From positions 139,869,725 through 139,933,724 of the forward strand of contig CM037588.1 in the NCBI GenBank assembly GCA_021018995.1: a stretch of DNA of 64,000 bases, read 5' to 3'. Under the pieces are notes generated by a model. The model worked only from the letters and a program-made list of their open reading frames with translations. It was not told the origin of the DNA and did not search any database. Source of the stretch: Chloranthus sessilifolius (Eukaryota; Streptophyta; Magnoliopsida; Chloranthales; Chloranthaceae). Every line of letters begins with the position of its first letter. Within the stretch, counting starts at the first letter, position 1. The position numbers and the translations under genes were made by a program. Shown piece by piece: positions 13,039-44,999 of the stretch.

Positions 13039-15235
13039 TGTAAAGACCCGTATTTTGAACCCGAGTTAGACTGACCCTGTGTGTGTATTCGGCTCGGCAA
13101 CCGACGTCACCATTTGTTTTGGATTTTCATCTAGATGTGATTGTGCGGACAGATTTTAATTTAGAGCCCATTTGGACCCTCGTGCGAAAGTTGTGCACCG
13201 ACCTCGGTGTAGCCGCTCAACACCGGACTTGAGTTTTAAAATTAGAAGTGTATAATACATAAGATGTGTGTGTGTGTTTTACTTTGTGAGCAATCCTATT
13301 ATAAGAAGGAATTGCATTCCCGTATTATACTAGGTTTTGTTAAGAGAGGATAGTTACCCAACCGTGTGAAACTCCTTCTTCTCTCTTCTTCAATCATCGT
13401 AGGAGATCGGTTTAGAAAACCTCCTTCTCTAGAACCCTCTTTGTTGAAAGCACTTAAACCTTAGAAAGAACTTGAATCAACCTTGGATTCGTAGTTGGCT
13501 ATTGGGAGAGGTTGAGATCATTGGGGGCGTGTTGGAGTTGTCTCTGTGAACTCGTGGGATCGATCGCGGCGCGAATCGTTGAGGAAACCCGTCGGTTTCG
13601 TTTCGAAGCTCCATTCGCGTGACTCTAATCTAGGAATCCTTAGATTAAAGGTACGTTTTAATTAAACTTTTTGATTAAATCATTAGATTAGCCATGGGTT
13701 TTTCTTTGGGATGTATGGGTTTCGATTCGGGTGAAAACCAGCGAAATCGTGTCGTTGTAGCTCGCTCGAACGAGCTATTATCATCGCTCGAGCGAGGTAT
13801 CACCGAACTCCGACATTGCCTTATTATTTTAGTCATAACATTTTATCCCGAACTCCGATTGCGACGATTCTTTTTGCGTTGGAAAGCTAATAGAAAAATC
13901 TACAACTTTTATGTTTTGACCAACGCATGGATCAATCATCTTGATAGTCAAAAATATATAAGAATGTTACGTCAAATTCTAGGATTGGCACAACTTGCCT
14001 GTTTTGACTTGTTTTTGAGGAAACGCTTAAATAGGTCTATATTATTAGTAATTAGAGTTTATCTTAATGCATGAACGCATATTGTGATGTAGATTGAGGG
14101 CGAGAGGCCATCAATAGGACTTTGCTTGACTTCGCATTACTCCGAGTTTTGGTAGGAGAATCTCATCTTTACAGTATTTTATTTTAATTCGCATAGATAT
14201 TTTGAATTAAAATCTTTGAACTTACATATGCCATTGAAATCACATCATAAATTGATATGAATGAGAAAATCTAAATCTACGAATCACGAAACACGAATAC
14301 CTTAAGCTACGAAAATCTGAAATCAAGAACCTGAACTATGTATAAGAGACTTGCATCTGATTTATATTAGTATCTGCATTTGTTTTATGATTGACCTGAA
14401 CGACCCCTCAAAAATTCCTGAACAACTTCCTGGCACAGGTTTCCCTCATTACGCATGGGGCTTGTTGCATCCTGAAAAAGGGTTCATGAACGACGATGGT
14501 AGGTAGGGGTTCCCATCGGCTATATTCCTGCTCTCGAGATATAGTTTACTCGGGAGGTATTTTAAGTTAAGGATTAAGTCATGAATTGCTGAACTTTGCA
14601 TATAAAAGTTAGAGAAACTAAGACATCAAACATCAGATTCATTCTTGAAACTGTTTTCACACATTTAGAAATAAATCTTATATATGGTTTCCGCACCTAA
14701 ATTCAGTTTATTATCTGCTTATATGTTTGACAAGCTATATTTCGATATTTGTTTTGAAACCATGTTAGTTAAAGTAAAATGCCGTAGATGTCTTTCTTCT
14801 ACTGAGCTTTGTTGGTTAGCTCACTCCGACTATACGTCCGAGTTCGTAATCGACGTGGCTATTCGTATCGTGGAGATCGATCCATTACGTGCTTGAGGAA
14901 GAGCTTGAGGTTCCTCCTGAGGAGTTTTTCCCAGTATAGAACTTACTGATTTTCTTATTTGTGGTGAGAGTTAGACTTGAATTTGTGGGCCCATTTTAGT
15001 TGGATATCATAGTTTTATACTTGACGTTGATTTTTGTTATGAGCCATATTTCGATGATGGTCGGCCATCATCGGTGGTTCTTTACTTTTAATTGCCTCCG
15101 CATTTATTTTAGCTATGGATAATTATTGCGCTTTACTCTGATATGTGCCCTGTTTGTCCGACTTATCGTTTATTCGATAGGTTGGCGAACCGGCCTTTCC
15201 TATACCTGAAGGATTGGAAAAGTCGGGTCGTCACA
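13039..15235 (+). repeat. 5' LTR of element A
   Basis: It runs from TGTAAAGACCCGTATTTTGA to GGGTCGTCACA (2197 bp) and matches 20834-23046 along its length. It contains a TATA-like CTATTATAAGAAGG near 13289 and a pair of GC-rich palindromes (CTCGAACGAG and CTCGAGCGAG) near 13768-13796. Confidence 0.95.
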
Positions 15236-15237
15236 GT

Positions 15238-15250
15238 TGGTATCAGAGCC
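15238..15250 (+). promoter_or_regulatory. Primer-binding site of element A
   Basis: TGGTATCAGAGCC lies two bases after the 5' LTR and is complementary to the 3' end of plant initiator methionine tRNA. Confidence 0.92.
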
Positions 15251-15407
15251 ATGGTTTTTAGATTCTCTAAGGACCCATGAGAACCAACCGTGACCCGGTA
15301 CAGTTCGCATCAGAGTCATGTCGTTAGGTCCAGAATCACTAGTACTGTTTGTGATTATCTTTACAATCAATGTTGACTGATGTTGTGGTGTTCACAATGA
15401 TGATCGG

Positions 15408-16674
15408 ATGGCCCTAAGATTTAGAGGCAGAGGCAGGTAGGACGGTGCCTTTAGAGGACATTCACGGTTGTCGGTACATCAAGGGAGTTGCCTTCGCATC
15501 CGGTTCTAATGCACATCCCTATAGGAGCCGGAGTTGATAGAGGTCGGTGAAAGAATGGAACAAGTGTTGGAAAGTCGGCCACCAACATTGCTCGAGACCG
15601 CATCTATGGCTCAAGATCGCGAATCGCCAAAGAAGCGAGCTGATTTACGCTAGACAACAACAACAATCATCGATTTGTCAATTCGAGGATGAGACCTCCA
15701 AATTTTCTGCAAACGGACCGAAGGTTGGTTGGATGAGATGGAAAAGATCTTGAGGTGCTTCGATTGCAGATGTCGAGAAAGGTTAGATGGGCAACCTTCA
15801 AACTGGATGGACAAATTTGGACCATGGTGGAAGTCCGTGGCTAGACACCGGGAGCAGGAGTTTCCCAATACTCCTTGGACATGGGCTGAGTTTATCGAAG
15901 CGTTCAACGATCAGTACTTTCCCAAGATCGTTAGGCATCAGATGGAAGTTCAGTTCATCGAGCTGAAGTAGGGGACAATGTCAGTGCGTGAGTATGGAGA
16001 TGAGTTCACGCGACTTTCAAGGTTTGCACCTCAACATGTGGCCACCGATATGATGAAGGCCAGAAAATTTCAGCTGGGTCTTAGGCCGAGTATACAAGAG
16101 AGCGTGGCTATGTGGGAAATGGAAACATATGGAGGAGTACTGTCAAAGGCCCTCATAGCAGAGGAAGAAATTCAAAAGCAGTTTTTGAGAAGCAGTCAGC
16201 CAAACAAGGACTGGGTTGTACAAGGGCAGTCAGGTACTTATGAAAATAAGAGGGCCAAGTTTACAAAGCCGCCAGTGAACCTTACTCAACCTGCATTTTC
16301 TAGACCAACATTTTCTTCTGGACCGACCCCTTATCAGAGATTGGCAGCATCATCACCTGTGCAATCCGTACGACCAGCGGGTTCTAACGCTAGTGGAGCT
16401 TCAGTGGCACAGGGATCCTCTCGTGCACCATCTTTTGTTTCGGTCACTATGTGCCTAAGGTGCGGGAAACCATACAAGACCGAGGATTGTAGGAGGAACA
16501 CTGGAGCGTGTTTTCAGTGTGGCACAATAGGACACATGGTTAAGGATTGTCCTCAGGAGGACAAGGGAAGAACTAGTTCGGCTTCTACTCAAAGATCGAC
16601 CCGACCTACTGTTCAAGGTCGAGCTTATGCCGTGATGGCTCAAGAAGCTGAAACATCGAACGACGTGATCCAAG
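15408..16674 (+). mobile_element. gag region of element A, fossil
   Basis: The region begins with an R-G-R-G-rich leader (ALRFRGRGR). It continues with the Ty3 gag core (WKSVARHREQEFPNTPWTWA, FNDQYFPKIVR, MSVREYGDEFTRLSRFAP) and ends with two CCHC knuckles (CLRCGKPYKTEDC and CFQCGTIGHMVKDC). It would form the nucleocapsid shell. It is broken. Confidence 0.88.
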
Positions 16675-16811
16675 GTATTATTAAAAGTTGAGATGTCTTC
16701 TTATTTTATGTGTTATATATAATTGCTTGATATTTAATAAATTTTGTTAATAAGTTATGGATGAACACACATGCTTAGAAACTTTTAATTGAAACGTTTG
16801 CCTAAACTAAG
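16675..16811 (+). other. Spacer between gag and protease of element A with GT...AG ends
   Basis: A 137 bp AT-rich segment separates the zinc-knuckle region from the protease. It starts GTATTATTAAAAG and ends AACTAAG. Segments at the matching position occur in elements B (29935-30110) and C (38356-38482). It has the look of an intron; whether it is spliced cannot be told from sequence. Confidence 0.55.
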
Positions 16812-19800
16812 GTACCCTTTTTATGCATCGGGGGAGCGATGTAAGCAAAACCGAAGCGCGAGTGTTAATAGACCCTGGGTCTACACATTCTTTTGTTACT
16901 CCATTGTTCGCTGAGAAGTTGGGAATCATTCTCAAGGCCCTTGATTTCATCTTGGCAGTGTCAATTCCTACGGGCAACTCAGTGAGCACCGATACCATGT
17001 GTCAATCAGTTATTGTGATGATCGAAGACCACGAGACAGTGGCTGATTTGATCATTTTGAGCATGGAAGGGTTCGACGTGATACTAGGGATGGATTGGTT
17101 ATCTACTTACCATGCGAGGGTGGATTGTCTTCGAAAGATTGTAACATTCCGCCCGCCGAAGAGAAAATCTTTTCGATTTTGCAGAGTCAAATCTTGTGTG
17201 ATACCGTTTATCTCTGCCATTCGAGCAGACCATATGATGAGGAACGGGTGTTGTGGTTATCTGGCCTACTTGCAAGAACATAAGGAGGAGAAGAAAAATA
17301 TTGCAGATATTACGATTGCTTGCAAGTATTCAGATGTTTTTCCTGAAGATCTACCGGGATTACCACCTGACAGGGAGATTGAGTTTGCAATTGAGTTAGC
17401 GCCGGGTACTGAACCAGAATCAAAAGCTCCGTATCGAATGGCGCCTGCAGAATTGAAAGAGTTGAAGGAACAGCTTCAGGAACTGCTAGATAAGGGCTTT
17501 ATTAGACCGAGTGTGTCACCCTGGGGAGCACCGGTTCTATTCGTAAAGAAGAAAGACGGTTCAATGCGGCTTTGCATCGATTACCGCCAGCTAAATAAGT
17601 TGACAATTAAGAACCGTTATCCACTTCCAAGAATTGATGATCTGTTCGATCGCCATAAGGAGCAAGGTTCTTCTCAAGATCGACTTGAGGTCGCTACCAT
17701 CGGTTGAAAGTTAAGTCCAAGACATTCAGAAGATGCGTTGAACCCGATATGGGCACTACGAGTTCTTGGTCATGCCATTTGGGTTGACAAACGCACCCGC
17801 GTCATTTATGGACTTGATGAACCGGATATTCAAGTCACATTTGGACAAGTCTGTAGTAGTTTTTGTAGATGACATCCTCATCTATTCAAAGACGTGAGAA
17901 GAACATGAGCAACATCTGTGAGTGGCTCTACAAACCCTTAGAGACCATCAGTTATACGCAAAACTTAGTAAGTGTGAGTTTTGGCTTGAGCAGGTCAGTT
18001 TCCTAGGCCATGTTATCTCTGAGACCGGTATTACAGTTGACCCAGCAAAGATTGAGTCAATGATGAATTGGGAACATCCAAAGACCGTTACGGAGGTTCG
18101 TAGTTTCCTCGGTTTGGCAGGATACTGCAGAAGGTTTGTGGAGGGCTTCTCCAAGATATCAGGTCCTCTTACACAACTTACGAAGAAGAATACTAAATTT
18201 GATTGGACAGAGCAGTGTGAGCAAAGTTTTTAGGAACTCAAGAAACGATTGACTCATCAGCCAAGATTGCTATACCATCGAGCGGGGAGGCCTTGCAGAT
18301 ATCTGATGATGCATCATATGGGGTTTTAGGCTGTGTGTTTAACCAGAATGAGAGAGTCATTGCTTATGGGTCTAGACAGCTAAAAGACCATGACAAGAAT
18401 TACCCGACGCATGATCTTGAGTTGGCAGCAGTGATTTTTGCTCTGAAGATCTGGAGGCATTACCTTTATGGGGAGACCTTCGATATATTTACCGATCATA
18501 AGAGCCTAAAGTATCTCCTCTCACAAAAGGAGTTGAATATGAGACAGCGTCGATGGATGGAGTTTTTGAAAGATTATGATTGTACCATCCAGTACCACCC
18601 CGGGAAAGCAAACGTAGTGGCAGATGCGTTAAGTCAGAAGTTCTCTGCTCAGTTATCACATCTCACCGCAAGGGTGCAAAGATGGCATCTATTGGAAGAT
18701 ATGGCTCTAAGTAGCATGAGATTTGACGTAAAAGGTTCAATCGTTAATGGCTACTGCGGTGATTCGTTCCACCCTCTATGAGAACATTCGCAGACTTCAG
18801 ATGACGGATGATGAACTTATGGCTATCAGACGGGATGTGATTGGGGGAAGCAAAATAGATTTTTCTATCAAAGATGATGACACTTTGTTGTTTAGAAACC
18901 AGGTATGCGTACCAACTAGTACTTAGCTTCGGGACACTATTTTGGAAGAGGCTCATAAGTCTATGTACGCTATTCACCCTGGCAGTACCAAGATGTACCA
19001 GGACTTAAAGAAAAGCTTCTGGTGGAGAGGTTTAAATAAAGATGTCGCTGTGTATGTCTCGAGATGTCTTGTGTGTCAGCAAGTAAAGGTGGATCATCGA
19101 AATCCGGTAGGACTGTTGCAACCACTACCGATACCTGAGTGGAAATGGGAGGCCATTTCTATGGACTTTATTTTGGGATTGCCAAGAACATTAAGAAAAT
19201 ATAATGCCATCTGGGTCATTATAGATCGATTGACTAAGTCCGCACACTTCCTTCCTTATAATACGCCGTATACCGCCAACAAGCTCGCAGAATTATACAT
19301 CAAGGAGATAGTTAGGTAGCATGGTATACCGGTCAGTATCGTATCCGATAGAGACCCGATGTACACATCTCCTTTGGAGGAATGGGCTCTAGGCTCGATT
19401 ATAGTATAGCATTCCATCCTCAGACTGATGGGCAGACTGAGAGGGTGAATCAGATTATAGAAGATATGTTACGTGCTTGCATGTTGGATTTCCAGGGGTC
19501 ATGGGACCAACATTTACCGCTGATCGAGTTCGCCTACAATAACAGTTACCAGGCTAGCATCGGCATGGCGCCCTACGAAGCTTTGTATGGACGACGGTGC
19601 AGGTCTCCGCTTAATTGGGAAGAAGTGGGTGAGAAACTCATTTTAGGTCCCGAGATCATGGAGAATACAACCGAGACAGTTCGGTTAATCCGTGAGAGAC
19701 TACGCATTGCTCAAAGTCGTCAGAAGAGCTACGCTGATCTGAAAAGAAACCATATTGAGTTTAAGGTGGGAGATAACGTATTTGTCAAAATCTCTCCTAC

Positions 19801-20185
19801 AAAAGGCGTGATGCGTTTTGGGAAGCGTGGGAAGCTGAGTTCGTGCTATGTTGGACCTTTCGAGGTATTAGGCCGAGTCGGCGAGGTTGCCCATCGAGTA
19901 GCCTTGCCACCGCAGCTATCGGAAATACACAACGTGTTTCATGTGTCCATGTTACGAAGATATGTTAAGGACCCGACACATGTATTAGACTACCAGCCCA
20001 TTGAGCTCCAAGAAGACCTATCCTTGGTTGAGGAACCGATACGAATCTTGGATCGTAAAGAACAAATCTTACGGACAAAGAGCATTCCCTTAGTACTCGT
20101 GAAGTGGCGGAACCATTCTTCAGAGGAAGCCACATGGGAGCGTGAAGCGGAGATTCGCGAGCAATTTTCACAACTTTTCGAGTGA
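16812..20185 (+). mobile_element. pol region of element A (protease, RT, RNase H, integrase, chromodomain tail), fossil
   Basis: Recognisable parts are the aspartic protease near 16865 ([10 protein letters not shown]), reverse transcriptase from about 17400 to 18000 ([20 protein letters not shown]), RNase H near 18290-18640 ([11 protein letters not shown]), and the integrase zinc finger and core from about 18940 to 19600 (HPQTDGQTERVNQ). A chromodomain-like tail at about 20040-20185 has the form VKWRNHSSEEATWERE. Domain order protease-RT-RNase H-integrase is that of Ty3/gypsy. The region is broken in several places. Confidence 0.9.
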
Positions 20186-20833
20186 AGGTATATTGTAAAC
20201 TATAGTTATGTAAGAAAACCATACGTACCTTTAAATTCTTGAATTTGCTTCTTTAAAAAAAAAAAAAAAAAAAAGGGGAGAATTTCTTCAAAATCTTCAA
20301 TGTTAAATTGGTTCATAACATCGATGCTTTACATATATATCTATAACGATCACACAATAAAATCTTAAATGTCATATTTATTCATTCTCGGTTAGAACCG
20401 TATGTCTGTTGGAACCCGTGTCATCAGTTAGAACATGTTACCAGGCACATGATCATGCTTTTAAATAAGTGTTCGATTTTGACATCTGAAATTTCTGCTC
20501 AAATAATTACCAAAAGGGTGAGGTAGGTGTGTGTGCTAGGTTTGTGTCATGGTGAAGTATATTTCCAGGCACGTGACACTTGGGAAGGTATGCATCCATG
20601 TACGGATGCAATCCTCTATGGCAGTATGGGATGCCACACACAGTACATCCAGGTTACTACGGATCCCGACCCTTGAAAGCGTGCTTAGTGAAGCCTACCG
20701 CATCGCGACCAAAGTTCTTTGACTTTAGACTGTTTCGATTCTGCTTTATACTGGTGTTAGGATAAGGACTTACCGCAATTCGGTTTAGCTATCCGTACAT
20801 TTTCAAGGACGAAAATTCCTAAGGAGGGTAGAA
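20186..20833 (+). other. 3' non-coding region and polypurine tract of element A
   Basis: It holds an A tract at 20257-20274, a module conserved with element C (20568-20675) and the polypurine tract AAGGAGGGTAGA (about 20821-20832) directly before the 3' LTR. No extra reading frame is present, unlike elements B and C. Confidence 0.8.
20568..20675 (+). promoter_or_regulatory. Conserved hairpin module in the 3' region of element A
   Basis: GGCACGTGACACTTGGG is followed by the perfect hairpin GCATCCATGTACGGATGC (20592-20609) and by GTACATCCAGGTTACTACGG. The same string of motifs occurs in element C at 42539-42632 although the surroundings differ. Conservation of non-coding sequence suggests a shared cis-acting RNA or DNA signal; function is unknown. 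Confidence 0.7.
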
Positions 20834-23046
20834 TGTAAAGACCCGTATTTTGAACCCGAGTTAGACTGACCCTGTGTGTGTATTCGGCTCGGCAACCGAC
20901 GTCACCATTTGTTTTGGATTTTCATCTAGATGTGATTGTGCGGACAGATTTTAATTTAGAGCCCATTTGGACCCTCGTGCGAAAGTTGTGCACCGACCTC
21001 GGTGTAGCCGCTCAACACCGGACTTGAGTTTTAAAATTAGAAGTGTATAATACATAAGATGTGTGTGTGTGTTTTACTTTGTGAGCAATCCTATTATAAG
21101 AAGGAATTGCATTCCCGTATTATACTAAGTTTTGTTAAGAGAGGATAGTTACCCAACCGTGTGAAACTCCTTCTTCTCTCTTCTTCAATCATCGTAGGAG
21201 ATCGGTTTAGAAAACCTCCTTCTCTAGAACCCTCTTTGTTGAAAGCACTTAAGCCTTAGAAAGAACTTGAATCAACCTTGGATTCGTAGTTGGCTATTGG
21301 GAGAGGTTGAGATCATTGGGGGCGTGTTGGAGTTGTCTCTGTGAACTCGTGGGATCGATCGCGGCGCGAATCGTTGAGGAAACCCGTCGGTTTCGTTCCG
21401 AAGCTCCATTCGCGTGACTCTAATCTAGGAATCCTTAGATTAAAGGTATGTTTTAATTAAACTTTTTGATTAAATCATTAGATTAGCCATGGGTTTTGCT
21501 TTGGGATGTATGGGTTTCGATTCGGGTGAAAACCAGCGAAATCGCGTCGCTGTAGCTCGCTCGAACGAGCTATTATCATCGCTCGAGCGAGGTATCACCG
21601 AACTCCGATATTGCCTTAGTATTTTAGTCATAACGTTTTATCCCGAACTCCGATTGAGACGATTCCTTTTGCGTTGGAAAGCTAATAGAAAAATATACAA
21701 CTTTCATGTTTTGACCAATGCATGGATCAATCTTCTTGATAGTAAAAAATATATAAGAATGTTACGTCAAATTCTAGGATTGGCGCAACTTGCCTGTTTT
21801 GACTTGTTTTTGAGGAAACGCTTAAATAGGTCTATATTATTAGTAATTAGAGTTTATCTTAATGCATGAACGTATATTGTGATGTAGATTGAGGGCGAGA
21901 GGCCATCAATAGGACTTTGCTTGACTTCGCATTACTCCGAGTTTTGGTAGGAGAATCTCATCTTTACAGTATTTTATTTTAATTCGCATAGATATTTTGA
22001 ATTAAAATCTTTGAACTTACATATGCCATTGAAATCACATCTGTAAACTGAAATTGATATGAATGACTGAAAATCTAAATCTACCTGAATCCTGAAACCT
22101 GAATCTGCTTAAGCTCTGAAAATCTGAAATCAAGAACCTGAACTATGTATAAGAGACTTGCATCTGATTTATATTAGTATCTGCATTTGTTTTATGATTG
22201 ACCTGAACGACCCCTCAAAAATTCCTGAACAACTTCCTGGCACAAGTTTCCCTCATTACGCAGGGGCTTGTTGCATCCTGAAAAAGGGTTCATGAACGAC
22301 GATGGTAGGTAGGGGTTCCCATCGGCTATATTCCTGCTCTCGAGATATAGTTTACTCGGGAGGTATTTTAAGTTGAGGATTAAGTCATGAATTGCTGAAC
22401 TTTGCATATAAAAGTTAGAGAAACTAAGACACTGAAACACTGTATCTGTTCTTGAAACTGTTTTCACACATTTAGAAATAAATCTTATATATGGTTTCCG
22501 CACCTAAATTCAGTTTATTATCTGCTTATATGTTTGACAAGCTATATTCCGATATTTGTTTTGAAACCATGCTAGTTAAAGTAAAATGCCGTAGATGTCT
22601 TTCTTCTACTGAGCTTTGTTGGTTAGCTCACTCCGACTATACGTCACAGTGTTCTTAATCGACGTGGCTATTCGTATCGTGAGACCGATCCTCGACTACG
22701 CGTTCGAGGAAGAGCTTGAGGTTCCTCCTGAGGAGTTTTTCCCAGTATAGAACTTACTGATTTTCTTATTTGTGGTGAGAGTTAGACTTGAATTTGTGGG
22801 CCCATTTTAGTTGGATATCATAGTTTTATACTTGACGTTGATTTCTGTTATGAGCCATGTTTCGATGATGGTCAGCCATCATCGGTGGTTCTTTACTTTT
22901 AATTGCTTTCGCATTTATTTTAGCTATGGATAATTATTGCACTTTACTCTGATATGTGCCCTGTTTATCCGGCTTATCGTTTATTCGATAGGTTGGCGAA
23001 CCGGCCTTTCCTATACCTGAAGGATTGGAAAAGTCGGGTCGTCACA
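20834..23046 (+). repeat. 3' LTR of element A
   Basis: It runs from TGTAAAGACCCG to GGTCGTCACA (2213 bp) and pairs with the 5' LTR. Differences are sparse over most of the length and gather in patches near 22040-22110, 22425-22450 and 22640-22710. Confidence 0.95.
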
Positions 23047-23051
23047 TGGAG

Positions 23052-23974
23052 ACACCCTAGCTGGCTGCAAGGTTGGGACGCGTAGTAGTAACACCCATAT
23101 AACTATGGTTGGATAAAGAATTGCGGGGATGTCTTATTAGCATGGCTTGAAATATCGTCCAAGACAAGAAGTCTTGGGGGTCAGAGAAATGAGATTGGTG
23201 TGTGTTTCGCTCTCAGATGCAATATAGAAAATAATTATTTTATATTTTAATTTTTATAGGAAGTACTAATCATAAATTTTTTACACATTGCCCTATTTTG
23301 TTGTACTCTAATTCTGTATATGTGATGAACTCATGAATGGCTATCACAGTGTGTCGAAATCTGTACACCCTAATATACGTTATTATTCTTAATTTCTAAT
23401 GATTAATATTGAAGATAATTTATCCGACTGTATGCAATTGATTTATGGGTGTGATTCTTTTAACTGATGTTCCAATCATGCATGACCACTTGGGTATTTA
23501 GATTGATCAAAGACATTTTCCATGTGACATAATAGTAAAATATTATTCAATGGTGTTAGATTAAACACCTATTTTAATGGTATAAGATCATTAAAAGGGC
23601 TATTTTCGTGTCACACCATGATTCTAGACGTCTTGGTCTCGGGGCTATACAGGACAACTCAGAAATCCGATATTTCAAAACCATGTGTATAAGAAAGCAT
23701 GGGGTACAGTTGCATGTTAGTGAGCTGAAATCAAACCCCTCAATTATAAGTTGTTTCAGATTTGGGAAGTGGAGGCTTTCCCTTGGCTGTTGGCAATTCA
23801 TAACCAGAGCACCCAGCTATTGGCATGCCTGGGTGATGAAGCCGAAGTTGGTAGAAATTCCACTGTCCCTCTATTTCCTATCATATATCGATTAATATAA
23901 TGAACTTGAAAGGGTAATAGTTTAAAGTTCATTATTACTAATTCTGCTTTCCATTAATGTGTTGGTTATTTCAG
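23052..23974. other. Intergenic, right flank of element A
   Basis: A small hairpin, CCAAGACAAGAAGTCTTGG, lies near 23159-23177. An open frame of 95 codons (23608-23895) shows no family resemblance. A first exon for the ribosomal protein pseudogene that follows was looked for and not recognised. Confidence 0.45.
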
Positions 23975-24211
23975 CCGAGTTTGCGGTAACCCACAATGGT
24001 TGATCAGAAAGTACGGACTTATGTGTTGTAGGTAGTGCTTCCGCAGCAACGCCAAGGAGATTGGCTTTGTCAAGGTAAATCACTGTTTGTAGTATTTGCT
24101 ATTTGTTAGTATTTTTATTAATATTATTACTATTATTTCATTTATTCTGCTGTTAAATCCTCCAAATATTGTTTTTGAAAATGTTGTTTAATTTGTTTTC
24201 AGTACGGTTAA
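23975..24211 (+). pseudogene. RPS29: 40S ribosomal protein S29 (uS14) pseudogene, intron-containing
   Basis: The exon 23975-24074 translates as RVCGNPQWLIRKYGLMCCR, stop, CFRSNAKEIGFVK. This matches the zinc-binding core of S29 (C-x-x-C...C-x-x-C), a roughly 56-residue small-subunit protein. A GT donor (24075) and a TTTTCAG acceptor (24202) enclose an intron. The next exon gives Tyr-Gly-stop (24203-24211), close to the family's Tyr-Arg end. The exon opens with one base completing a cysteine codon, as in intact plant genes. The in-frame TAG replaces the family's glutamine, and the first exon (MGHSN...) is not recognised. Retained introns show it arose by DNA duplication and not by retroposition. 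Confidence 0.85.
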
Positions 24212-25403
24212 GAAGGTGATCTGATTTTCCTACAAGGAAGGCATAGGCAAGGCGGTGAGATGGAAGAAAAGATGGGGTTCATAATTTTAGTTTTGCTTCT
24301 TCCTACTAGTGGCATGAGTGGTTTTGCTGCCGCATCTTAGTACACTCTTTAAACCTCTCCTATGGATTTTGCTTGTTTGATTTTACTTGTTTTATTTGGT
24401 TAAAACTTGGGATGATACTTTATTTTAGACATCTATCTTAACAAACAGATTTAAATCCCCTTGTCTTTGCTAACAAGCTGATTTCACTTCTAATCAAGGG
24501 TTCTGATATTTGTGAAATGGGTTTCCTCTAAAATGTGTTGGTGCCATTTGAAGTGTTGGTACGTTTAGGCATAATCGTGCACTTTTTGGACATTGATTGT
24601 AAGGAATAGATATGAGAATTTCATGCAGGTTAAATTGGAAACCGGGAAAAATGGTTAGATCATGAGTGCCATCAAACGGTGCATATGGTGACTCCGCATG
24701 ATACTTCCCAAAAATGGCGCGCAATCAAGATTACCTTGGATAGACAGCTATAGTGTCCACCCTATGCCCCATTGGATAGACAGCTAGCCAGCATAATATA
24801 AATCGAACATGGTTACTGCCACACCACTTAAATAAAGAACATTTTGTTGACTACTCTGAATAAGATGAAGATTGTCTTTAGTCTCAATCTTGCACACAAT
24901 AGATCTTGAGAGCATGGGCCTACCATCAGACGGTCATTTGTTGATGCCATGTGGCACACATCCCAAAAAGGAGACGATTGCATCATAACGTAAATACGAG
25001 AGACCAAAATAGCATGAATCAATTTTTATGGAATGAAGCAACCGTCTCATTTTTTTAGGATGTGTGCCAAGTGGAATCAATGCCGGACCATTTGATTGTA
25101 AGCCCATGTCAACGCCGGACCATTCGATTGTAAGCCCATGATCACAACTACATTGTGTGAAAGATTGGAACAAAAATTGATCACCCTCATCTGATTGGAG
25201 GTGGTGTGGCAGTAAAAAAAATGGATGTGTAACACTGCTTTATAAATTTCAAAGGAAGAAAGCATTATTCACAATTGAAGATTCTTTTAGCACATATGAT
25301 GGTGCCGCAATAAAATTATTGATTGCCTTGTTTAAGTGATGGAGATCATTATTTTTTCAACTCTATCTTTTGCATGCTAGATCATGGACCACCTATCGGA
25401 TAG
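24212..25403. repeat. Intergenic, dense in the dispersed non-coding repeat family
   Basis: The first 200 bases look like the 3' flank of the RPS29 copy. From about 24770 the recurrent phrases appear (GATCTTGAGAGCATGGGCC, CATCAGACGGTC, GGCACACATCCCAAAAAGG). A 35 bp tandem pair, CCGGACCATTTGATTGTAAG and its near copy, lies at 25083-25142. The repeat continues to 25408 and resumes after element C at 45000. Confidence 0.6.
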
Positions 25404-25408
25404 TATGT

Positions 25409-25984
25409 TGTAATATCCCTGATATTTTTTGAGCTATTTTCGTTTACCTCGAAAAGCGTGTCCAAAAAATATTGTGGACTATTTTAGATTTTTGGTAATC
25501 TAAGTCTATGATAAGACTTTTGGCATATGGATTTCGTTTTAAGAGGTGTGCAAGTCATGTAATCTATGACTCACACAATAGCATTGGTGTTTGTGTTTAA
25601 CACCGGATAATGTTTAAACTTAAGTAGATAAGTAGTAATTATAAATATCTAGATTTTTAGTAGGTTTTGTTTTATATTATAAAGAGAGAGAGATTTGAGA
25701 GAATTTACACTTCTCTCTTTCGGTTGAAAGTAAATTGCAAACTAATTGGGCTGCTTTTGATCTTTAGATCTTGAGATAGTGAGAGCTCCTCTTCCCATCT
25801 CAACCATTGGTTTAATTGGTATTTGAAATTGGATCAGTTTGAGATATTGGAAGAGAAGGTTAGAGGAGAGGATATCACTGTGTTGTTAGGATCTGTGCAA
25901 TGGAAGAAGGGTTATATGGGCTGACTTGAAACTTAAAACCTTCAATCATAGAAGCTTGTTCCAGTGCGTGAATCGGTACAAGGG
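25409..25984 (+). repeat. 5' LTR of element C, first piece
   Basis: TGTAATATCCCTGATATTTT onward matches 42731-43306 with only a handful of differences in 576 bases. It stops where element B begins. Confidence 0.93.
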
Positions 25985-28505
25985 TGTAATAGCCCGAAAA
26001 ATTATGCTAAACTATGACCTCGGGATCCGTGCCCGATCGGTCATAGGTTTGACCAAATGGAAGTCCAATAGTTAGCATGAGGTGTGATGAACGGATGAGA
26101 TGTGATAAATTGAATGTCTATGTGGTGTGTGTTGTAAATGTGAAGTCGCATACACCTATCACGGTGTATGTGCTCAACACACACGTGAGGAAAGGGATAA
26201 AAGGGTTTAATAACCCTAAATGTGTGTTTTTGGTGGTTGAGAGAGAAGTAAAGAAGAGAGAGAGAGAGAGGAAGTAAAGAGAGGAGTTATTGCAACTGAT
26301 TTGGAAGGGGGATTCAAGCGATAAAAGCCGGATTCAACACGGTTTGGATCTGTTAGAGCCAAAGCTGGAAACCCTAGCCTTCCAACCATTTGATTTGAAA
26401 TCAATTTGAGATTGATTCAAGGTAAAATTTTTGTGAATAAAATGCATAGATCGTAGAGGCTAGGTTGTGGTTGAAAGTGGGTTAAATCATAGGATAATGG
26501 TTTAGAAAAATAGAGGAAAAAGTATGGAAGAAGATTGGGAAGAACAAATGAAGAAATTTGAATCTGACAATTTCGATTAATCGAAATTGGGTTTCAATTA
26601 ATCGAAATTGGCCAGGAAGTTGAAAAGTCAGAGGACCCCGATTTCGATTAATCGAATGGGAATTCGATTAATCGACTTTGGATTTCGATTAATCGATTTG
26701 GGTATCGATTAATCGACTGGGAACCTCCAGTGGACCCCAGGGGTTGGAGGAAATGGCTTGAGGAAAAATCGACTAATCGAAATGAGATTTCGATTAATCG
26801 ATTTCAGTTTTCGACTAATCGATTTGGGATCGATTAATCGATTTTAGGAACTCGACTACTCGAATTGAGAATCGACTTTGCGAAACAGAGAATTTCGATT
26901 AATCGAATTAGGATTCGATTAATCGAATGAAAATCTCGATTAATCGATTTGAGAATCGATTAATCGATATTGACTTTCGATTAATCGATTTTGGAAATCG
27001 ATTAATCGAATCAGATTCGATTAATCGATTTTGGAATTCGATTAATCGACTGAGATAAATTATGTTGACTTTTGGGTTTGACTTTAAGATTCTTGGAGAG
27101 TCTTGGACCTTCTTTATTGCATCCTTAGTGATGTGTTTCACCTGTTATGTGGTACCATAGGTGGTACGTGTGAACTAATGCACAAGGAGCCACGTGGGAC
27201 CTTGATGCGTTGAGCAAACAAAGACTTGAGGTAGGGAACACCTTGAACATGTACTTTATTTTACAAGAGCATGTATGTAATGATATAGAGTTCAATTCAA
27301 ATGTTTATTTGCTTAAAGATTGTGAAAAGTGTGTGTGCGTGTGACACCCATAAGAGTAATGAGAATGAGCCATCCCCAGGGGATGAAGAAGTAAAGAGAT
27401 GAGAGCATCAGGTGTGATGCAAGTAAATGGATACATCCCAGGGATGTATCCAATGATTGAATCATGTTTGATAGGCCCTAACTGATATAAGATAGCACAC
27501 TTACACGGTGAATAACTATATGTAAGGCACCGATATTTTTGTTATTTGAGGTTTGATAGGTTACCCCACCGACGTGGCGGGATATCCACGACTGACACGG
27601 CAGGATATCCGTGACCGATACAGCGGCGAAACCGTAGGCCAGTGCGGAGGCTTATCCGTACATAGTAAGCACACCCCAGGGGTGTTGATTTGAGATAAGT
27701 GAAACCCCGCCACCAATCCCCAGGGGAAAGGGGCTTGGGTACTATATTTGTATTCCCAGGGAATACGTTAAAACTGTCTATATAGATGATGATGAAGGGT
27801 ATCTCATCGGGGCTCAATGCTATATTGCTCGGGGATTACTTAAGTTGAAAGTTTAAGTTTTGCTTTAGGCCTTTTCAGCATCATTCAGGAATAAATGAAA
27901 ACATAAGTAATTAACAGTAAAATGAAATGCTTTTAACTGTTTTCATCAATAACTGCATAGACACATCATGCATGGCATATCATGGAATATATGTGAGTTA
28001 TAATTTATATGTTCAACCGTGTTTGTTCCCTATTGAGCTAGGATGTAGCTCACCCTATAGACTATACGTCGCAGGTCCACTACTAGCAGTTACTTGGGGA
28101 GCTTGAGAGGCGATCCGTGAGTCGGACCTTGCGGTGGAGCCACCTCGAGGACTTCTTCTAGAGGACTCCATTGTGCCGCTTTGAGGGCTTTTAGAGATTT
28201 TATGCGGCTTGGTATCAAGCCTTGATTTTATTTAAAACCATGTATATAAGGAGTTGGGATTATTCTTTTGGGATGAACCATCGTGATGATTTCTATCATC
28301 GATGGTTGGATCGATTCTCCATTCATGCGAGGCATGAGGTAGAAGCATCTTTTGGGAGTTAATTAATATAGATTTAAATTACGCAATTTAGTTTATTATA
28401 CTTTTGATGCTTGATATACCGGTGTTAGGTGCTTAGCTAAAGAGCACGGTCAAGATGATAAATCGTGTGATGGCACGGGTTTGAAGTGCGAAATTGAGCA
28501 TCACA
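25985..28505 (+). repeat. 5' LTR of element B
   Basis: It is 2521 bp, from TGTAATAGCCC to GAGCATCACA, and directly precedes the primer-binding site. It includes a GA microsatellite (about 26249-26272) and a dense palindrome array (26573-27056). Confidence 0.9.
26573..27056. repeat. Array of TCGATTAATCGA palindromes in the LTR of element B
   Basis: About twenty copies of the 12 bp palindrome TCGATTAATCGA, or one-base variants such as TCGACTAATCGA, occur in 480 bases. They are separated by irregular spacers of roughly 5 to 40 bases. The spacers are not conserved, so the palindrome itself is the repeated unit. Confidence 0.95.
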
Positions 28506-33475: not shown

Positions 33476-34678
33476 GAGCTTAATGTAAACCACAAACATG
33501 TTTGTGAAATCTCCACTATACTTGTAATTCAATGGAAAAAAAATTTGATCCAATCTGATTTGAGGAACAGAATTATATGTACATGATCAAGTATATACAA
33601 CTCTATGGAAGAACCACTTGATGTCATAAACTACCAAAAATAATCAAAGAACCAAAGAAATTGAAAATCTGCAGAAATTGGGCAAAACCGATTAATCGAA
33701 TTTCAAATCGATTAATCAATTTGGAATTTTGATTAATCGATTTTGTTCGATTAGTCGACTGGCATGTACCAGTGACTGGAAATTGAAAGGAGAGTTAGAA
33801 TATACATAGAAGACAAATTTCGATTGATCGAGTTAGAATCTCGATTAATCGATTTGGGATCGACTAATCGATTTTGAGAATTTCGATTAATCGAATTAGA
33901 ATTCGATTAATCGAATGGCAAGTTCGATTAATTGAACAAACTGAGAATGTTAGAAGAATTGGGAGTCAATTATGAAAGTTTGATTAACCGAAGCAGTGTC
34001 GATTAATCGATTTTGGATTTCGATTAATCGAACTGGATCTTGATTAATCGATTTACTAAAGGGACCTCGAAGAAATTGAAGTCAGATAGACGATTTCGAT
34101 TAATCGAAGTGAATTTCGATTAATCGATTTTGAAATTTCGATTAATCAAAATGAATTCGATTAATCGAATAACTTAAAGATTTCTAAAAATTTAGAAGTT
34201 ACTACACGATTTCGATTAATCGAAGTGAAATTCGATTAATCGATTTTAAAATTTTGATTAATCGACATGGATTTCGATTAATCGACTGGCTCATGCCAGT
34301 GAGCTCAAAAACTTAAATTTTTAAACGAATACGATTTCGATTGATCGATTTGGGAAATCGATTAATCGATTTTACGCAGCTTAACCTAGATTGAAATCTC
34401 GATTAATCGATTCTGGATTTCGATTAATCGAGCCGGGGCCTATATATTGGAAATTAGGGATTTTCCTTGCCATTCGAAATCTCTTGAGCTCTCGAGTGTT
34501 GGCGCTTTGTCTTCTTTTTCTTCTCCAACCAACCGAGCGATCTAGGGTTTGGATTCTCCGCTGATTCGCATCCGAAATCGCCCGCATTCGCCTCCGAAGC
34601 CTAAGGTAAACCCTAGGCTCGAGTATATTCTTCAATTTCAAGTCGAAAACCCTAGTTTTTACCGGAAATTTTGTCAAA
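33476..34678 (+). other. Non-coding stretch between pol and the extra frame of element B, with a palindrome array
   Basis: From about 33688 to 34440 there are roughly twenty copies of the same TCGATTAATCGA palindrome that fills the LTR of element B. From 34440 the sequence becomes promoter-like (TATATATTGG at 34441-34450) and GC-richer, and leads into an additional reading frame at 34679. An intron-like donor, AAGGTAAACC, lies near 34603. Confidence 0.8.
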
Positions 34679-36118
34679 ATGCCGCCTAAAACCCGTTTAT
34701 CTTCAAAGAAGGCAACTTCTAAAGTCCCGGTTAGGCGTAAGAACGCCGCGCCACCACCACCTACCCCATCGCCGTTGAGGACTCCATCACCGTCGGCATC
34801 GGAGACCACCTCCGGTTCGACGAGCGCGTCTACGCGCGAGTCTTCCCGCGAGTCCACCCCCATGCCACCACCACCCACCAATGTCGAGCAACCAAATGAA
34901 TGGTGGGCGGCAAAGACCTTTGAGGTCGAATATATTATCGACCCTACCCTATTCACAAATCCCGATTTGCCGGGCGAGACCCAATGGGCTCGAAATTACC
35001 TCACCAACGCCGGTCTCGGCAACCTTCTCAAACCAATCCGGGGTTCTTACTACCCTAGATTGGTTAGACTGTTTTACCAAGGGCTAACGGATGGCCCTAC
35101 CGATGATTGCATTTTGACCAAGATCGAGGGTCGTGCATGCCACGATCACTGCCGTCACATACACGAGGTACTCGAGTGTTACCTCGATTTCACCCCAGAG
35201 ACCACCCTATTCCCACCCTTCGAGGAGGACCCTCGATTTGAGGAGGTCATGACCCGCATGACAAATGGCAAGAAGGGGTCGGGCTCCTCCATCAAGAGGG
35301 TTGACCTTCCACACTACATGTGGATGCTTGATTCAATAATCAAGTGCAACCTCTACCCAATGCGCCATGACACAGAGCGCGTGGACAAAGTGCAACATGC
35401 ACTTTATGCGGCCTTCTGTGGCCGATGGTTTGATGCTACTATGGTCATCCTAGAAGGGATGAAGTACATCAAGGGAAAATTGATGAAGGGCAACATGCGG
35501 CCCAAGGAGAAGATGCCATATGCTCGGCTCATCTCGAGCATGTTGGAGTGCTACTCCGACGAGCCCTCCTACAGCATCTCGCCTCACGAGGTGAGGGCTA
35601 CGGATCGCGTGAAGACGTTTATGAAGTCTTCATGGACCCGTAGCTATAATTTACTAAAGCGGACCCTACCAGCTCCGGGTCCCGCTCATGAAGAAGGCGG
35701 AGCAGCGTAGCACCGCCACCACCCCACCACCTCGGCGGGACCCACCCGTGGGTGGAGCACACCTATCCCCGCCGAGCCATCCGTGGAGAGGTTCCTCCCA
35801 CCACGACGCCACCGCCCACTCACGCGCCGCGCGACACCCACCTCATCTTACCGCCGGCGTGCCGCTCCATCCGGTCCTACCATCGAGGACGTGTTGGCTC
35901 ACATGGAGGCCAACAACGAGAGGATGAACCGGAGGATGGACTTCCTACTCTTTCACACCCTCCGCCACATCTATCCTACCGACTACCGCCGCTACCTCGC
36001 CCAGGAGGAGGAGTGGACAGCCGGACGCACCGCCTTCCACCGAGGACCCGTCTTCCATCCCACCACTACAGACGTGGTTCCTTCCACATCTTCCTTCGCC
36101 GACCACCCGGCAGTGTGA
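34679..36118 (+). mobile_element. Extra reading frame of element B after pol (putative plant transposon protein type), fossil
   Basis: The first long part (34679-35710) gives 343 residues: a basic, proline/serine-rich N-terminus (PPKTRLSSKKATSKVPVRRK) followed by a folded-looking region. The region from QPNEWWAAKTFEVEYIIDP through YPRLVRLFYQGL, GSGSSIKRVDLPHYMWMLDS and KMPYARLIS matches the extra frame of element C block by block. From memory it belongs with the domain called putative plant transposon protein. Its role is unknown; a basic N-terminus would suit nucleic-acid binding. It is broken. Confidence 0.75.
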
Positions 36119-36464
36119 TCGCCACCACCCAGCCAGTGACCACCGTCAGCTCCAGCAGACACACCCGCTCCTGTAGCACCCGACCAGCCTGTTTGAGTCT
36201 TGTATTTATTTTTGAGTTATGATTGTATACCTGTAAATTGTTTTGTACGCCAACTTAACTGGCCTTGTAAAAAATTCATCAAACTTTTTGTGTCAATTGT
36301 TCAATTTTGTTAAATTTTACTTCCGTGCTTGTATGTGTGGATACCTAAATACGTCTGAATCAATTAGACCACCTCACCTGAAAATGTGAGGGGGGAGAGA
36401 GAGAGACCCCGATAGCCATACCTTGGGTTATTTTCGAGGATGAAAATTCCCAAGGTGGGGAGGA
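36119..36464 (+). other. 3' non-coding region and polypurine tract of element B
   Basis: No gene is visible. GAAAATTCCCAAGGTGGGG and AGGA run into the LTR start at 36465, forming the polypurine tract (about 36452-36464). Confidence 0.8.
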
Positions 36465-36555
36465 TGTAATAGCCCGAAAAATCACGCTAAACTATGACCT
36501 CGGGATTCGTGCCCGATCGGTCATAGGTTTGACCAAATGGAAGTCCAATAGTTAC
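36465..36555 (+). repeat. 3' LTR remnant of element B
   Basis: TGTAATAGCCCGAAAAATCA to TCCAATAGTTA matches the first 90 or so bases of the 5' LTR at 25985. Sequence from 36556 onward matches the LTR of element C instead. Confidence 0.9.
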
Positions 36556-36996
36556 AGGTGCTGAGCCTGACCTTGGGTCAGAGGATCCGGAGGACTCCGA
36601 TTATATTCCCGAGGAGGATTTGGATATACCAGCTGAGGAGTTCTTCCCGTGATCTTAGATTTTCTATTTTTTGGTATTTTGTCTGGATATTATTTTTGGA
36701 TTGATGAGCCTTAGACTATTATTTTGATCTTCTGATATCACTCGAGGAACCATTATTGTGAACCTCTATTTTAGGTGATCGGATTGGCCATCACCGGTGG
36801 TTCCTTTTGGTTCCTCACAGTGATATATCTAATTTAGTTATATGAAGCTTTTGTTTTTGGATTAAGAATGTTGCCTCTGTCTTTAGACCTTTGTTTATGT
36901 TGCCGGCTTCTGTTTGTTACGGCTTATTGAGAAATCAATAAGTTGATGAACCGGCCTTTCCTATACCTTAGGGATTGGAAAAGTCGGGTCGTCACA
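36556..36996 (+). repeat. 5' LTR of element C, second piece
   Basis: GACCTTGGGTCAGAGGATCC to GGTCGTCACA matches 44570-44999 with about three differences. The primer-binding site of element C follows at 36999 (TGGTATCAGAG). Confidence 0.92.
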
Positions 36997-38355: not shown

Positions 38356-38482
38356 GTATCATTAAAGTTGAGACGTCAATTATGCATTGATTCAATTATT
38401 ATTGTTTAAATCTACATACAAGTCAATTATGTTAAAACACATAGGAATCATTGCATATAATTAACAAACTTTTTAACTAAAG
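38356..38482 (+). other. Spacer between gag and protease of element C with GT...AG ends
   Basis: A 127 bp AT-rich segment starts GTATCATTAAAGTTGAGAC and ends TAACTAAAG. Its start resembles that of element A (GTATTATTAAAAGTTGAGA), so the two spacers are related by descent. Confidence 0.55.
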
Positions 38483-39894: not shown

Positions 39895-40869
39895 ATTTTG
39901 AGACATTATGTGTGGAATGTATAATTTCTTGAATTTATATGTAATTATTAATTTTATACAGATGATTTGGCGAGAAAATTTTGTCGGTCCAATATACAGA
40001 TTACTTGGTGCATGTTTCGAAGACTCTACATTATAGAAAATTCAATACTATCGGGCCTACACTTGGTATCTTACACACTACTGGCCATGTGACATAAATT
40101 TGGCCTTGATACTGATGTCATGGCTCTATATATATATACCTATATTTTGTCCATATTTATAGCTTTTAATTGCGTTATGTTGTAGAAATCCTAAAACTTT
40201 TACGAGCCCGACCTAAACCGGACTTATTATTTTCTGAATGGTTATGTGAAATAAATTGGCCAAAAGATTACTTGGCCTATTCTTAAAATTGTCTATGCCA
40301 ATTCCGGCTGTGATAATACAATCATAGTCTGATGAGGTGAAGGGCATGAATTGGGATCAAACAAGGTATATTTAGACCCAAGGGCATGCTTGGAATTCCA
40401 AAAATTTTGAAAATTTTTAAAGATATGATAAAAAAATTATCGTCAAAATGCCAAATCGACCATCGAATTTCTATGAGTTTTCAAGCCAGTTTTCGGCCAA
40501 AAACAGAACCTGAGAAGTTCTGAGGAAATCGACCATCGATTTTCAAAATCGACCATCGATTTTGAAATCGACCATCGATTTTCTCGATTTAAGTTTGGGG
40601 GGTTTAAAACATTTTGGCATTTCGGTTGCCAGTTGTGGGGGTTTTGAGCTTAGGGTTTTGAGGGGTTTCGGACGATTTGGGGATTTTAGAGCTTCCTCTT
40701 CAATTTTTGGCCGCATTCCAAAGGGGATTTCACTACATTTCACAAGGGGAGCATATTTCAATCCTTGCAAAACCGATTTGGGGCTTTTTCACAAGGTAAC
40801 CCTTGCTATATTCTCTGTACATCCCTGTTTTCTTGCATTTTTGTGGGTTTTCTCTTAAATTTTGTTTGA
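39895..40869 (+). other. Non-coding stretch between pol and the extra frame of element C, with a palindrome array
   Basis: Between about 40452 and 40586 there are five copies of TCGACCATCGA, a TCGA-NNN-TCGA motif. The sequence then turns promoter-like and reaches the extra frame at 40870. No other gene is seen. Confidence 0.8.
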
Positions 40870-42198
40870 ATGGGCCCTAAGAAGCAGACACCCATTAGGA
40901 ATCCCACCTCAAAGCGACCGGCTTCTAAAGCTGCGTCTACAAGCCGCACAAAACAGCCCACAGAACCACAGTCGGCTCCACCACCCACTGTCTCTCCTTT
41001 ACCTGAGCAACCCAACGAATTTTGGAGCATTAAAGGCTTCACTTCGGAATATTTGTTTCACCCGGAGTTGTTTGACCAGCAAACGACCACACAATGGGCG
41101 GGTGAATACCTTGAAAAGGCCAAATTGACCTCCCTGTGCACATCCTTTAGCGACCATTTCTATCCCCGACTCGTGCGCCTATTTTATCAGCACATGAGCC
41201 GCGAAGATGGGAAAAGAATCTATACGGAGATTGATGGCCGCGATTATACGTTTGATCTAGAGGACATGGCTGTGGCATTGCGATGCCCTTTAAATCACTC
41301 ACAAACCATGGGTCTAGGTTCTCCCTTCCCCAAACCTGTCCGTTTCGAGGATGTAATCACGCAAATGACGCAAGGCCGTCATGGGTCCGGTAAATCCATC
41401 GTCACGGTCCATATGCCAGAGACCATGTGGATCTTGGATAAAATTTTAAAGGCCACCCTTTACCCTTTTGGTCATCAATCTAAGCGCACCGGTCCCCTTC
41501 AACAAATTCTTTTTGCGGCCTATAAGGAGCGATGGTTTAGTGCTGCTAAAGTCCTTTTTAAAGGGATTATCAAAGCCCGAGAGAAAATGGGCAAACATGT
41601 GAAGAAACCATTGAAGACTATGCCCTATGCTCGCCGAATTTCAGTAATGATTGAGAACTACCGAGCGGGCCCTGCTTATGATATCCCTCCTACTGAACCC
41701 AAATCCACAGCGGGTCGAAAAATTTATAACTTGGTCAATTGGGGTCAAACCTACAGTAGGTTGGTAAAGACTCCAAAGGATGCAGAGGCACCTGATACAG
41801 CTAGTGAGGACGATGATGACCCCACTCATTCTATCCCTGACACTACTACCGCTGCACCTCCTCAGCCCCCACAGAGTGACGTTCTTACACTCTCCGAGTT
41901 CACCCGACAGATGACCGCCATGAGTCATCAGATTCAAGAGCTCACCCACCACACCAGCTCTATGCGTCAGGAGTTGGATGTCCATGGCGGCGCCCTCTCT
42001 TATTTGATGCAGCACGCGTTTTCAGAGGATTACACGACGTATATGGCCGATATCCGTGCTTCAGTATATCGCCCTTCGACATCGGGCGCTGGTACTAGCA
42101 TGCCTTCTACGGCCAGAGAGGATACGGGTGATGATGATGCTACTGCGGGTGATGGTACTTCGAATCGGGCGGGTCCATCTTCTGCCGGGGATTGTTAG
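40870..42198 (+). mobile_element. Extra reading frame of element C after pol (putative plant transposon protein type)
   Basis: A single open frame of 442 codons looks whole. It has a basic N-terminus (PKKQTPIRNPTSKRPASKAA). A conserved domain at roughly residues 40-290 includes EQPNEFWSIKGFTSEYLFHP, FYPRLVRLFYQHM, EIDGRDYTF, GSGKSIVTVHMPETMWILDK and KTMPYARRISVM. A predicted helical segment (EFTRQMTAMSHQIQELTHHT) follows, and the tail is acidic and serine-rich. It aligns block by block with the extra frame of element B. Function is unknown. Confidence 0.8.
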
Positions 42199-42730: not shown

Positions 42731-44999
42731 TGTAATATCCCTGATATTTTTGACCTATTTTCGTTTACCTCGAAAAGCGTGTCCGAAAAATATTGTGGAC
42801 TATTTTAGATTTTTGGTAATCTAAGTCTATGATAAGACTTTTGGCATATGGATTTCGTTTTAAGAGGTGTGCAAGTCATGTAATCTATGACTCACACAAT
42901 AGCATTGGTGCTTGTGTTTAACACCGGATAATGTTTAAACTTAAGTAGATAAGTATTAATTATAAATATCTAGATTTTTAGTAGGTTTTGTTTTATATTA
43001 TAAAGAGAGAGAGATTTGAGAGAATTTACACTTCTCTCTTTCGGTTGAAAGTAAATTGCAAACTAATTGGGCTGCTTTTGATCTTTAGATCTTGAGATAG
43101 TGAGAGCTCCTCTTCCCATCTCAACCATTGGTTTAATTGGTATTTGAAATTGGATCAGTTTGAGATATTGGAAGAGAAGGTTAGAGGAGAGGATATCACT
43201 GTGTTGTTAGGATCTGTGCAATGGAAGAAGGGTTATATGGGCTGACTTGAAACTTAAAACCTTCAATCATAGAAGCTTGTTCCGGTGCGTGAATCGGTAC
43301 AAGGGGATCAACAGATTTAGCTACAAGAGGTATGCCTTGAAACCTCCTTATGTAAATTTGTTGGGTTTTGTTAAGAAATTAAGATTTGGATTCAATAGAA
43401 AGGATGGAATGGCTGTGTAGAAAATGATGAAAAAGAATCCGGGCATGTTAAATTAACAGCCACAGAGCCTGGGAAATTCGACTGTCGATTTCAAAATCGA
43501 CTGTCGAAATTGGAAATCGACTGTCGAATTGGAAATCGACAGTCGAAAATGAGATTTAAGCTTGAAACAGAGTTCTGAAATTCGATGGTCGAATTTAAAA
43601 TCGACCATCGAATTTCAAATTCGACCATCGAATTTGAAATCGATGGTCGAATTCTGTCCAGCTTTTGGCTTTTACATATTTGATTGGATTTTTATTTTTT
43701 GAGCTTTTGGGGTTAATTTTTGGGTTCTATATTAACACTGAGGGTGTTAATATATGTAGGTTTTGACAATTGGGAGTCCTTGGAGAGGACTACTTGTTCA
43801 TGCTTTTGAATTGTCTTGGTTAAGGTAGGGGAATCCTAATTATTATTTGCATGAATTATAAGCATAAATTGTCATAAATCATGTTATTTTTAGAATCATG
43901 AAATATAGAAATTTCATTACACACAGTGAAATTAAAAACTTTGAACATATGATACAATCCGAAAATTTGTAAACCTTATCATAAATAAGAATCATTAGAA
44001 ATCAGAACCTCAGCTAAATTTGAATCAGAACCTCAGTTAACTTTTGAATCAGAACTTCGAATCAGAACTTTGAAAAAAATCAGTATATGATATGAATAAT
44101 AAGCTTTGATATGTGTTAGCATTTGCATTTGATTTTGGGTTCATAAGTACGATGCCCTAGATTTCACCAACCGTGTTGACGGTAAAACTTTGGCGCAAGT
44201 TTCCCTCATAGCGTAGGGGCTTGTTGCATTTTCGAAATGGGTTCATGAACGACGATGGTCAGTAGGGTCTTCCCATTGGTCACGTAGTCTGCTCTCATGC
44301 TATAGGAAATTTGGGAGATAAAATTAAGTTATAAATTTAAGACAAGAAGCATGCTAAATCAGAACATTTGAACACTTTAGATTTTATTATCAGTTTTGAC
44401 TCAGGATTAGAACTGGAGATTTAATTTGAAAAGCATCATTGAAAAACCATATTTGATCTGATTCCGTCTTTTGAAAACCTTTACTTATAAGAAATGCAAA
44501 TAGATCTGTCTTCCTCTATTGAGCTTGGCTGTTAGCTCACCCTCGACTATACGTCACAAGTCTTTGAGGACCGACTTGGGTCAGAGGATCCGGAGGACTC
44601 CGATTATATTCCCGAGGAGGATTTGGATATACCAGCTGAGGAGTTCTTTCCGTGATCTTAGATTTTCTATTTTTTGGTATTTTGTCTGGATATTATTTTT
44701 GGATTGATGAGCCTTAGGCTATTATTTTGATCTTCTGATATCACTCGAGGAACCATTATTGTGAACCTCTATTTTAGGTGATCGGATTGGCCATCACCGG
44801 TGGTTCCTTTTGGTTCCTCACAGTGATATATTTAATTTAGTTATATGAAGCTTTTGTTTTTGGATTAAGAATGTTGCCTCTGTCTTTAGACCTTTGTTTA
44901 TGTTGCCGGCTTCTGTTTGTTACGGCTTATTGAGAAATCAATAAGTTGATGAACCGGCCTTTCCTATACCTTAGGGATTGGAAAAGTCGGGTCGTCACA
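42731..44999 (+). repeat. 3' LTR of element C
   Basis: TGTAATATCCCTGATATTTT to GGTCGTCACA, 2269 bp, followed by the TATGT duplication. Its ends match the two 5' LTR pieces of element C. It contains a palindrome array at about 43474-43655. Confidence 0.93.
43474..43655. repeat. TCGA-NNN-TCGA palindrome array in the LTR of element C
   Basis: First come four copies of the TCGACTGTCGA type (three TCGACTGTCGA, one TCGACAGTCGA), then four of the TCGACCATCGA/TCGATGGTCGA type. Both orientations of the inner triplet occur. Spacers are short and variable. Confidence 0.93.

Follow-up and report, generated by a model that had tools for sequence, protein, structure and literature searches.

Closest described systems in plants

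Extra ORFs that are conserved but of unknown function are frequent in LTR retrotransposons of plants (PMC7264820). The authors of a sunflower study asked whether such ORFs shape the methylation of their own elements (PMC12844716). The closest described system is that of Arabidopsis, where VANC proteins are the anti-silencing proteins of VANDAL transposons (PMC5735166, PMC10398659). According to the accessible parts of these papers, VANDAL elements carry an extra gene and short motif arrays in their noncoding parts, the motif differs between related families, and the extra protein is more variable than the replication protein. The locus described here, a window of 64,000 nucleotides from Chloranthus sessilifolius, resembles VANDAL/VANC in each of these points: Two families in it bear four family-specific noncoding motif arrays. 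However, the carriers are not Mu-like DNA transposons but LTR retrotransposons with LTRs, a primer binding site, RT, RNase H and a chromodomain, the sites are palindromic, and their binding and a loss of methylation are putative. In addition, a Pfam search of both extra proteins (E up to 0.1) did not detect DUF1985. The logic appears to be that of VANC; protein family and carrier differ.

TnpA, encoded by Spm/En of maize, has repeated 12-bp binding sites. This protein has been linked to activation of the promoter of its own element and to the demethylation of this promoter (PMC10398659). Similarly, the present locus combines an element-encoded protein with repeated short sites, although the pairing of protein and sites is putative here and Spm/En is a CACTA DNA transposon, an unrelated element type. 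In Retand, antisense TRP28 ORFs predicted to bind DNA lie near family-specific tandem arrays (PMC11963269). Our elements have in common with Retand that an extra ORF lies between pol and 3' LTR, with tandem repeats nearby, but the Retand ORF is antisense and has domain PF04195, Retand is not a chromovirus, and the available text of that report describes no matching site in the LTR (PMC11963269). Sunflower Athila 14 has a sense extra ORF after pol with partial similarity to Transposase_32, which is discussed as env-like (PMC11728184). Orientation, position and Transposase_32 similarity agree with the ORFs found here. By contrast, Athila 14 belongs to the Athila lineage, and no site array is described in the accessible part of the paper (PMC11728184). 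The literature searched, most subscription papers lying outside it, did not reveal any extra ORF of this kind for which a matching site array has been described. A search with six site-like sequences returned no transposon papers, as judged by title and the start of the abstract.

Three related elements nested in one window

The window appears to be full of nested elements. Self-comparison and junctions revealed three related Ty3/gypsy elements, designated A, B and C (Table 1). The A LTRs (13039-15235 and 20834-23046) are 96.5% alike. The primer binding site of B is located at 28508. The start of its 5' LTR recurs at 36465 as a 94 bp block (95.7%), and the 3' LTR is cut off after about 90 bp (36465-36554), so that the B array in the LTR is seen in one copy. 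The C 5' LTR survives as two pieces (25409-25984 and 36572-36996), and B is inserted at a point equivalent to about 43305 in the C 3' LTR. The part matching 43306-44574 is missing from the C 5' LTR, and with it the array, which is therefore seen in the 3' LTR alone. The truncated B 3' LTR is joined to the C LTR at 36555-36571. Since this part of the C 5' LTR and the remainder of the B 3' LTR are both missing at this junction, one deletion took both.

Table 1. Coordinates of the elements, arrays and extra ORFs within the window
Feature	Position	Strand	Description
Element A	13039..23046	+	comparison element, related pol
B 5' LTR	25985..28505	+	inserted in the 5' LTR of C; TG start at 25985, CA end before primer binding site
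B LTR array	26573..27049		19 TCGATTAATCGA-type sites
Second B array	33688..34431		26 sites, between pol and extra ORF
B extra ORF	34679..35710	+	343 aa up to in-frame stop; weak Transposase_32 match
C array before extra ORF	40456..40578		4 TCGA-CCA-TCGA sites, between pol and ORF
C extra ORF	40870..42198	+	open frame of 442 aa; weak match to Transposase_32
C 3' LTR	42731..44999	+	
C LTR array	43478..43650		8 sites; two groups of four with a spacing of 19,20,19 in both

RNase H is present in both A and B, and their pol ends with a chromodomain, as is characteristic of chromoviruses (Ty3/gypsy). The chromodomain scores 31.3 bits in A and 24.3 bits in B, just under the Pfam cut-off of 25.1, and a piece of C aligns with this region of both. 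The main integrase/chromodomain pieces of C match B at 66-82% and A at 80-91%. C is devoid of RT and RNase H because a deletion joined protease and integrase. Both lie in a single open frame at 38461-39444 (+), and the extra ORF is intact; C is possibly a non-autonomous form. A first-pass annotation had regarded the LTRs with palindrome arrays as unrelated. This does not apply to B and C, which share pol and extra ORFs.

Outside these elements, ORFs matching SWIM and MuDR DNA-binding domains are pieces of a Mu-like transposon (58019-60296, minus strand). Longer tandem repeats are present at 811-1598 (263 bp), 60471-61025 (204 bp) and 62651-63003 (180 bp).

Arrays of palindromic sites in B and C

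About twenty motif copies had been noted in the B LTR, in good agreement with the number counted here. When up to three mismatches are allowed, 15 sites are perfect, three have one mismatch, one has two and none has three. The corresponding numbers for the second B array are 14, 11, one and none. There, a repeat-finding program detected a unit of 116 bp that is repeated about 3.5 times at 33878-34285. With at most one mismatch, the B motif has 44 matches in the whole window, whereas 100 shuffles gave 0.24 on average and never more than 2. In the B LTR, TCGA-N3/4-TCGA was found 18 times (mean 0.08, maximum 2 in 200 shuffles). The arrays described in the first-pass annotation are confirmed. They are extended by the 26 B sites and 4 C sites upstream of the extra ORFs, which it had not noted. 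At up to two mismatches, the two B arrays contain 45 of the 50 matches in the window, which rules out that the motif is equally common outside the elements. These 45 B sites have 18 mismatches, of which 8 represent C>T or G>A changes of a CpG, as would be expected if the arrays have been methylated.

For the C LTR, the first-pass annotation had proposed eight TCGA-NNN-TCGA motifs with two cores. Exactly these were recovered: CTG occurs three times, CAG once, and CCA and TGG twice each. Together with the array upstream of the extra ORF, the 12 C sites comprise CTG (3) and CAG (1) as well as CCA (6) and TGG (2). CAG and TGG are the exact reverse complements of CTG and CCA. This means that the asymmetric C cores are present in both orientations, for which head-to-tail duplication alone is insufficient.

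TCGA-N3/4-TCGA was counted in 15 stretches that exclude the C 5' LTR pieces and 23047-25408. The four array stretches contain 18, 18, 8 and 4 sites. Nine of the other eleven have none, and two have a single site each (left flank; C from primer binding site to pol end); shuffle means over the stretches are 0.01-0.53. All five stretches of A are free of the motif. A scan for clustered gapped palindromes (half-sites of 4-6 bp, gap 0-8, at least four within 600 bp) yielded 26 rows, which represent the B and C arrays, the sequence around them, and runs rich in A/T near 54.8 kb, and no cluster in the A LTRs. The palindromes previously seen in A exist as three overlapping CTCG..CGAG matches within about 40 bp of each LTR (shuffle means 0.14 and 0.17, three reached in 0 of 500 shuffles, for a motif picked after being seen). 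They are not TCGA-N3/4-TCGA sites, and the case of A is weak. The same is true for the putative copia LTR in the left region: One TCGATTGATCGA (1752) and one TCGATCGA (1685) are present, but neither the palindrome scan nor the motif counts revealed an array.

Sites are conserved, spacers are largely not

In B, mismatches to the consensus amount to 2% and 4% in the respective array cores versus 40-47% in the flanking 8 bp, and in the eight C LTR sites to 10% versus 25-27% with the two core types pooled; choosing sites by motif match favours conserved cores. The view that the palindrome is conserved and the spacers are not is therefore clearly correct for B and less sharp for the C LTR. When B array stretches were aligned as wholes, positions belonging to a site in either copy differed by 0-8% and all others by 36-53% in six of six comparisons, which share sequence and are not independent. 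The LTR comparisons employed hand-chosen 80-bp stretches, and the program-found repeat units were the 116-bp units of the second array only. Both the lack of sites with three mismatches, although three were allowed, and these whole-stretch alignments serve as checks against the bias of motif picking. A simple satellite or tail repeat with a similarly conserved spacer, named beforehand as a refuting outcome, is ruled out by the divergence values for B.

The spacers have a weak directional pattern near WTTGGAAT, and the flanks are partly conserved (AAWTCGA..TCGAWTT). Gaps were counted between neighbours at most 24 bp apart, which leaves out the longer gaps between groups. Gaps of 8 or 9 bp account for 8 of 8 in C, 12 of 15 in the B LTR and 12 of 19 in the second B array, with ranges of 8-9, 7-10 and 6-11 bp, respectively. 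This gap is common to both families despite a one-base difference in site length. Groups of four recur in the C LTR, and the repeat unit of the second B array measures about 116 bp. As to helical phase, 18 B LTR sites gave R 0.82 at 10.4 bp (maximum R over periods matched by 2 of 2000 random placements), and 25 sites of the second B array had a best period of 19.65 bp (maximum R matched by 16 of 2000). However, helical phase is given no weight, as C spacing averages 19.5 bp.

The extra ORFs of B and C

The last site is located 248 bp (B) and 292 bp (C) upstream of the ATG of the extra ORF. The two extra proteins are homologous (120 of 318 residues identical, 38%, E 2e-65). Among the 96 codon pairs with a single base difference, 62 are synonymous versus 26% expected. 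This excess indicates that the ORF has been kept as a protein. With 40% identity between B and C compared to 65% for an integrase/chromodomain piece, the extra protein diverges faster. Both have basic N-terminal tails: The first 35 residues contain nine K/R and no D/E in B, eight K/R and one D/E in C.

The only family found by the Pfam search mentioned above was Transposase_32 (PF20167), with 27 bits (E 4.8e-6) for B and 25.4 bits (E 1.5e-5) for C, under the curated cut-off of 45 bits. We know of no established DNA-binding role of Transposase_32. Structure models of the two proteins were unusable (mean pLDDT 37.9 and 37.7), and no match to a solved structure was obtained. Relatives were found neither in viral nor in prokaryote genome contigs, and a pattern scan of the viral contigs gave none; these sets are not plant collections. 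The forward frames of A contain no homologue save a short match adjoining the 3' LTR. Other-frame ORFs beside the extra ORFs (35692-36222 and 42008-42505) have no Pfam match (E up to 1).

DUF1985 is a domain marked on VANC proteins (PMC5735166). The window itself has an ORF (9121-9786, plus strand) with a DUF1985 match (E 9.9e-16) and a weak plant mobile domain match. About 3 kb past it, a repeat of 16-18 bp (GTTACCATAGGTACTTTT type) occurs three times at 12688-12747. The extra proteins gave no profile match to this ORF, using a two-sequence and hence weak profile.

Candidate binding proteins

The arrays are very probably protein-binding sites, since site positions have been conserved in otherwise diverged sequence, the C cores occur in both orientations and the gap is near-constant. 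The first-pass annotation had interpreted them as repeated protein-binding sites with one core per family or as CG-methylation targets. This is partly supported: Binding sites with one core per family fit the evidence, but the sites are not features of the LTRs alone, as they recur upstream of the extra ORF. Their position directly upstream of this ORF, which both array-bearing elements have and A lacks, points to an element-encoded binding protein. That the element's own protein binds them has an even or slightly better chance: The placement before the ORF repeats, a common half-site is combined with different cores and diverged extra proteins, and A lacks both sites and ORF. On the other hand, A is the only element without extra ORF among three in one window, the B extra ORF has an in-frame stop, and the contrast between core and spacer is smaller in C.

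The main rival is a host factor. The sites might bind a transcription factor or an insulator-type factor and be used as enhancer or insulator, with the extra ORF doing something else; Su(Hw), for instance, binds repeats of Drosophila gypsy. Conserved sites and gaps fit any binding protein, a location before two transcription units would suit promoter elements, and the arrays adjoining the ORFs could be ordinary promoter sites. However, the related elements B and C use different cores in one genome, where one factor should keep one site, and A has a related pol and no sites. The B core resembles homeodomain sites, whereas the C cores do not. Overall, a host factor is less likely than the element's own protein.

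Far less probable is a functionless expansion of tandem repeats. Family-specific tandem arrays are common in the region between pol and 3' LTR of plant retrotransposons (PMC11963269), and the 116-bp units of the second B array and the weak directional spacer consensus would agree with such an origin. It is opposed by the low divergence at site positions, by the two orientations of the C cores, and by the fact that each element holds its site in two separate places. A shade less probable still is a role in another step of the life cycle (integration targeting, recombination, hairpins of RNA or single-stranded DNA), which palindromic motifs and the insertion of B in a C LTR would suit, but A has a related integrase without the site, and B is inserted some 170 bp before the C array.

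Binding of the arrays by the extra-ORF protein, with self-activation or anti-silencing, is as a whole the best explanation, and we consider its chances about even. The protein encoded between pol and 3' LTR would bind the arrays. It is probably oligomeric, and as a dimer or larger assembly it would recognise a pair of TCGA half-sites that flank the core of 3 or 4 bp specific to each family. Adjacent units, once bound, would be about 8-9 bp apart so that a group of sites could be filled side by side. Since sites are present both in the LTR, from which the genomic RNA is expressed, and just before the extra ORF, binding would affect the two transcription units. The most likely benefit would be that only the own family is activated or escapes host silencing, as provided by VANC for VANDAL transposons. 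This effect is the least certain step and is taken from VANC and TnpA. Binding by the extra protein and relief of silencing are suggested by three elements in one window.

Implications

Tentatively, and at less than even confidence, we propose that plant chromovirus LTR retrotransposons have a sequence-specific anti-silencing or self-activation system of their own, separate from VANDAL/VANC. It would consist of a Transposase_32-like protein and cognate arrays in the LTR and at its own gene, which change together so that each family acts on itself. For one class of extra ORFs of plant LTR retrotransposons, a matching family-specific site array provides a directly testable function. If binding and loss of methylation prove true, sequence-specific anti-silencing would no longer be confined to DNA transposons but include retrotransposons, which make up much of plant genomes, and it would supply proteins with target sites known at the outset.
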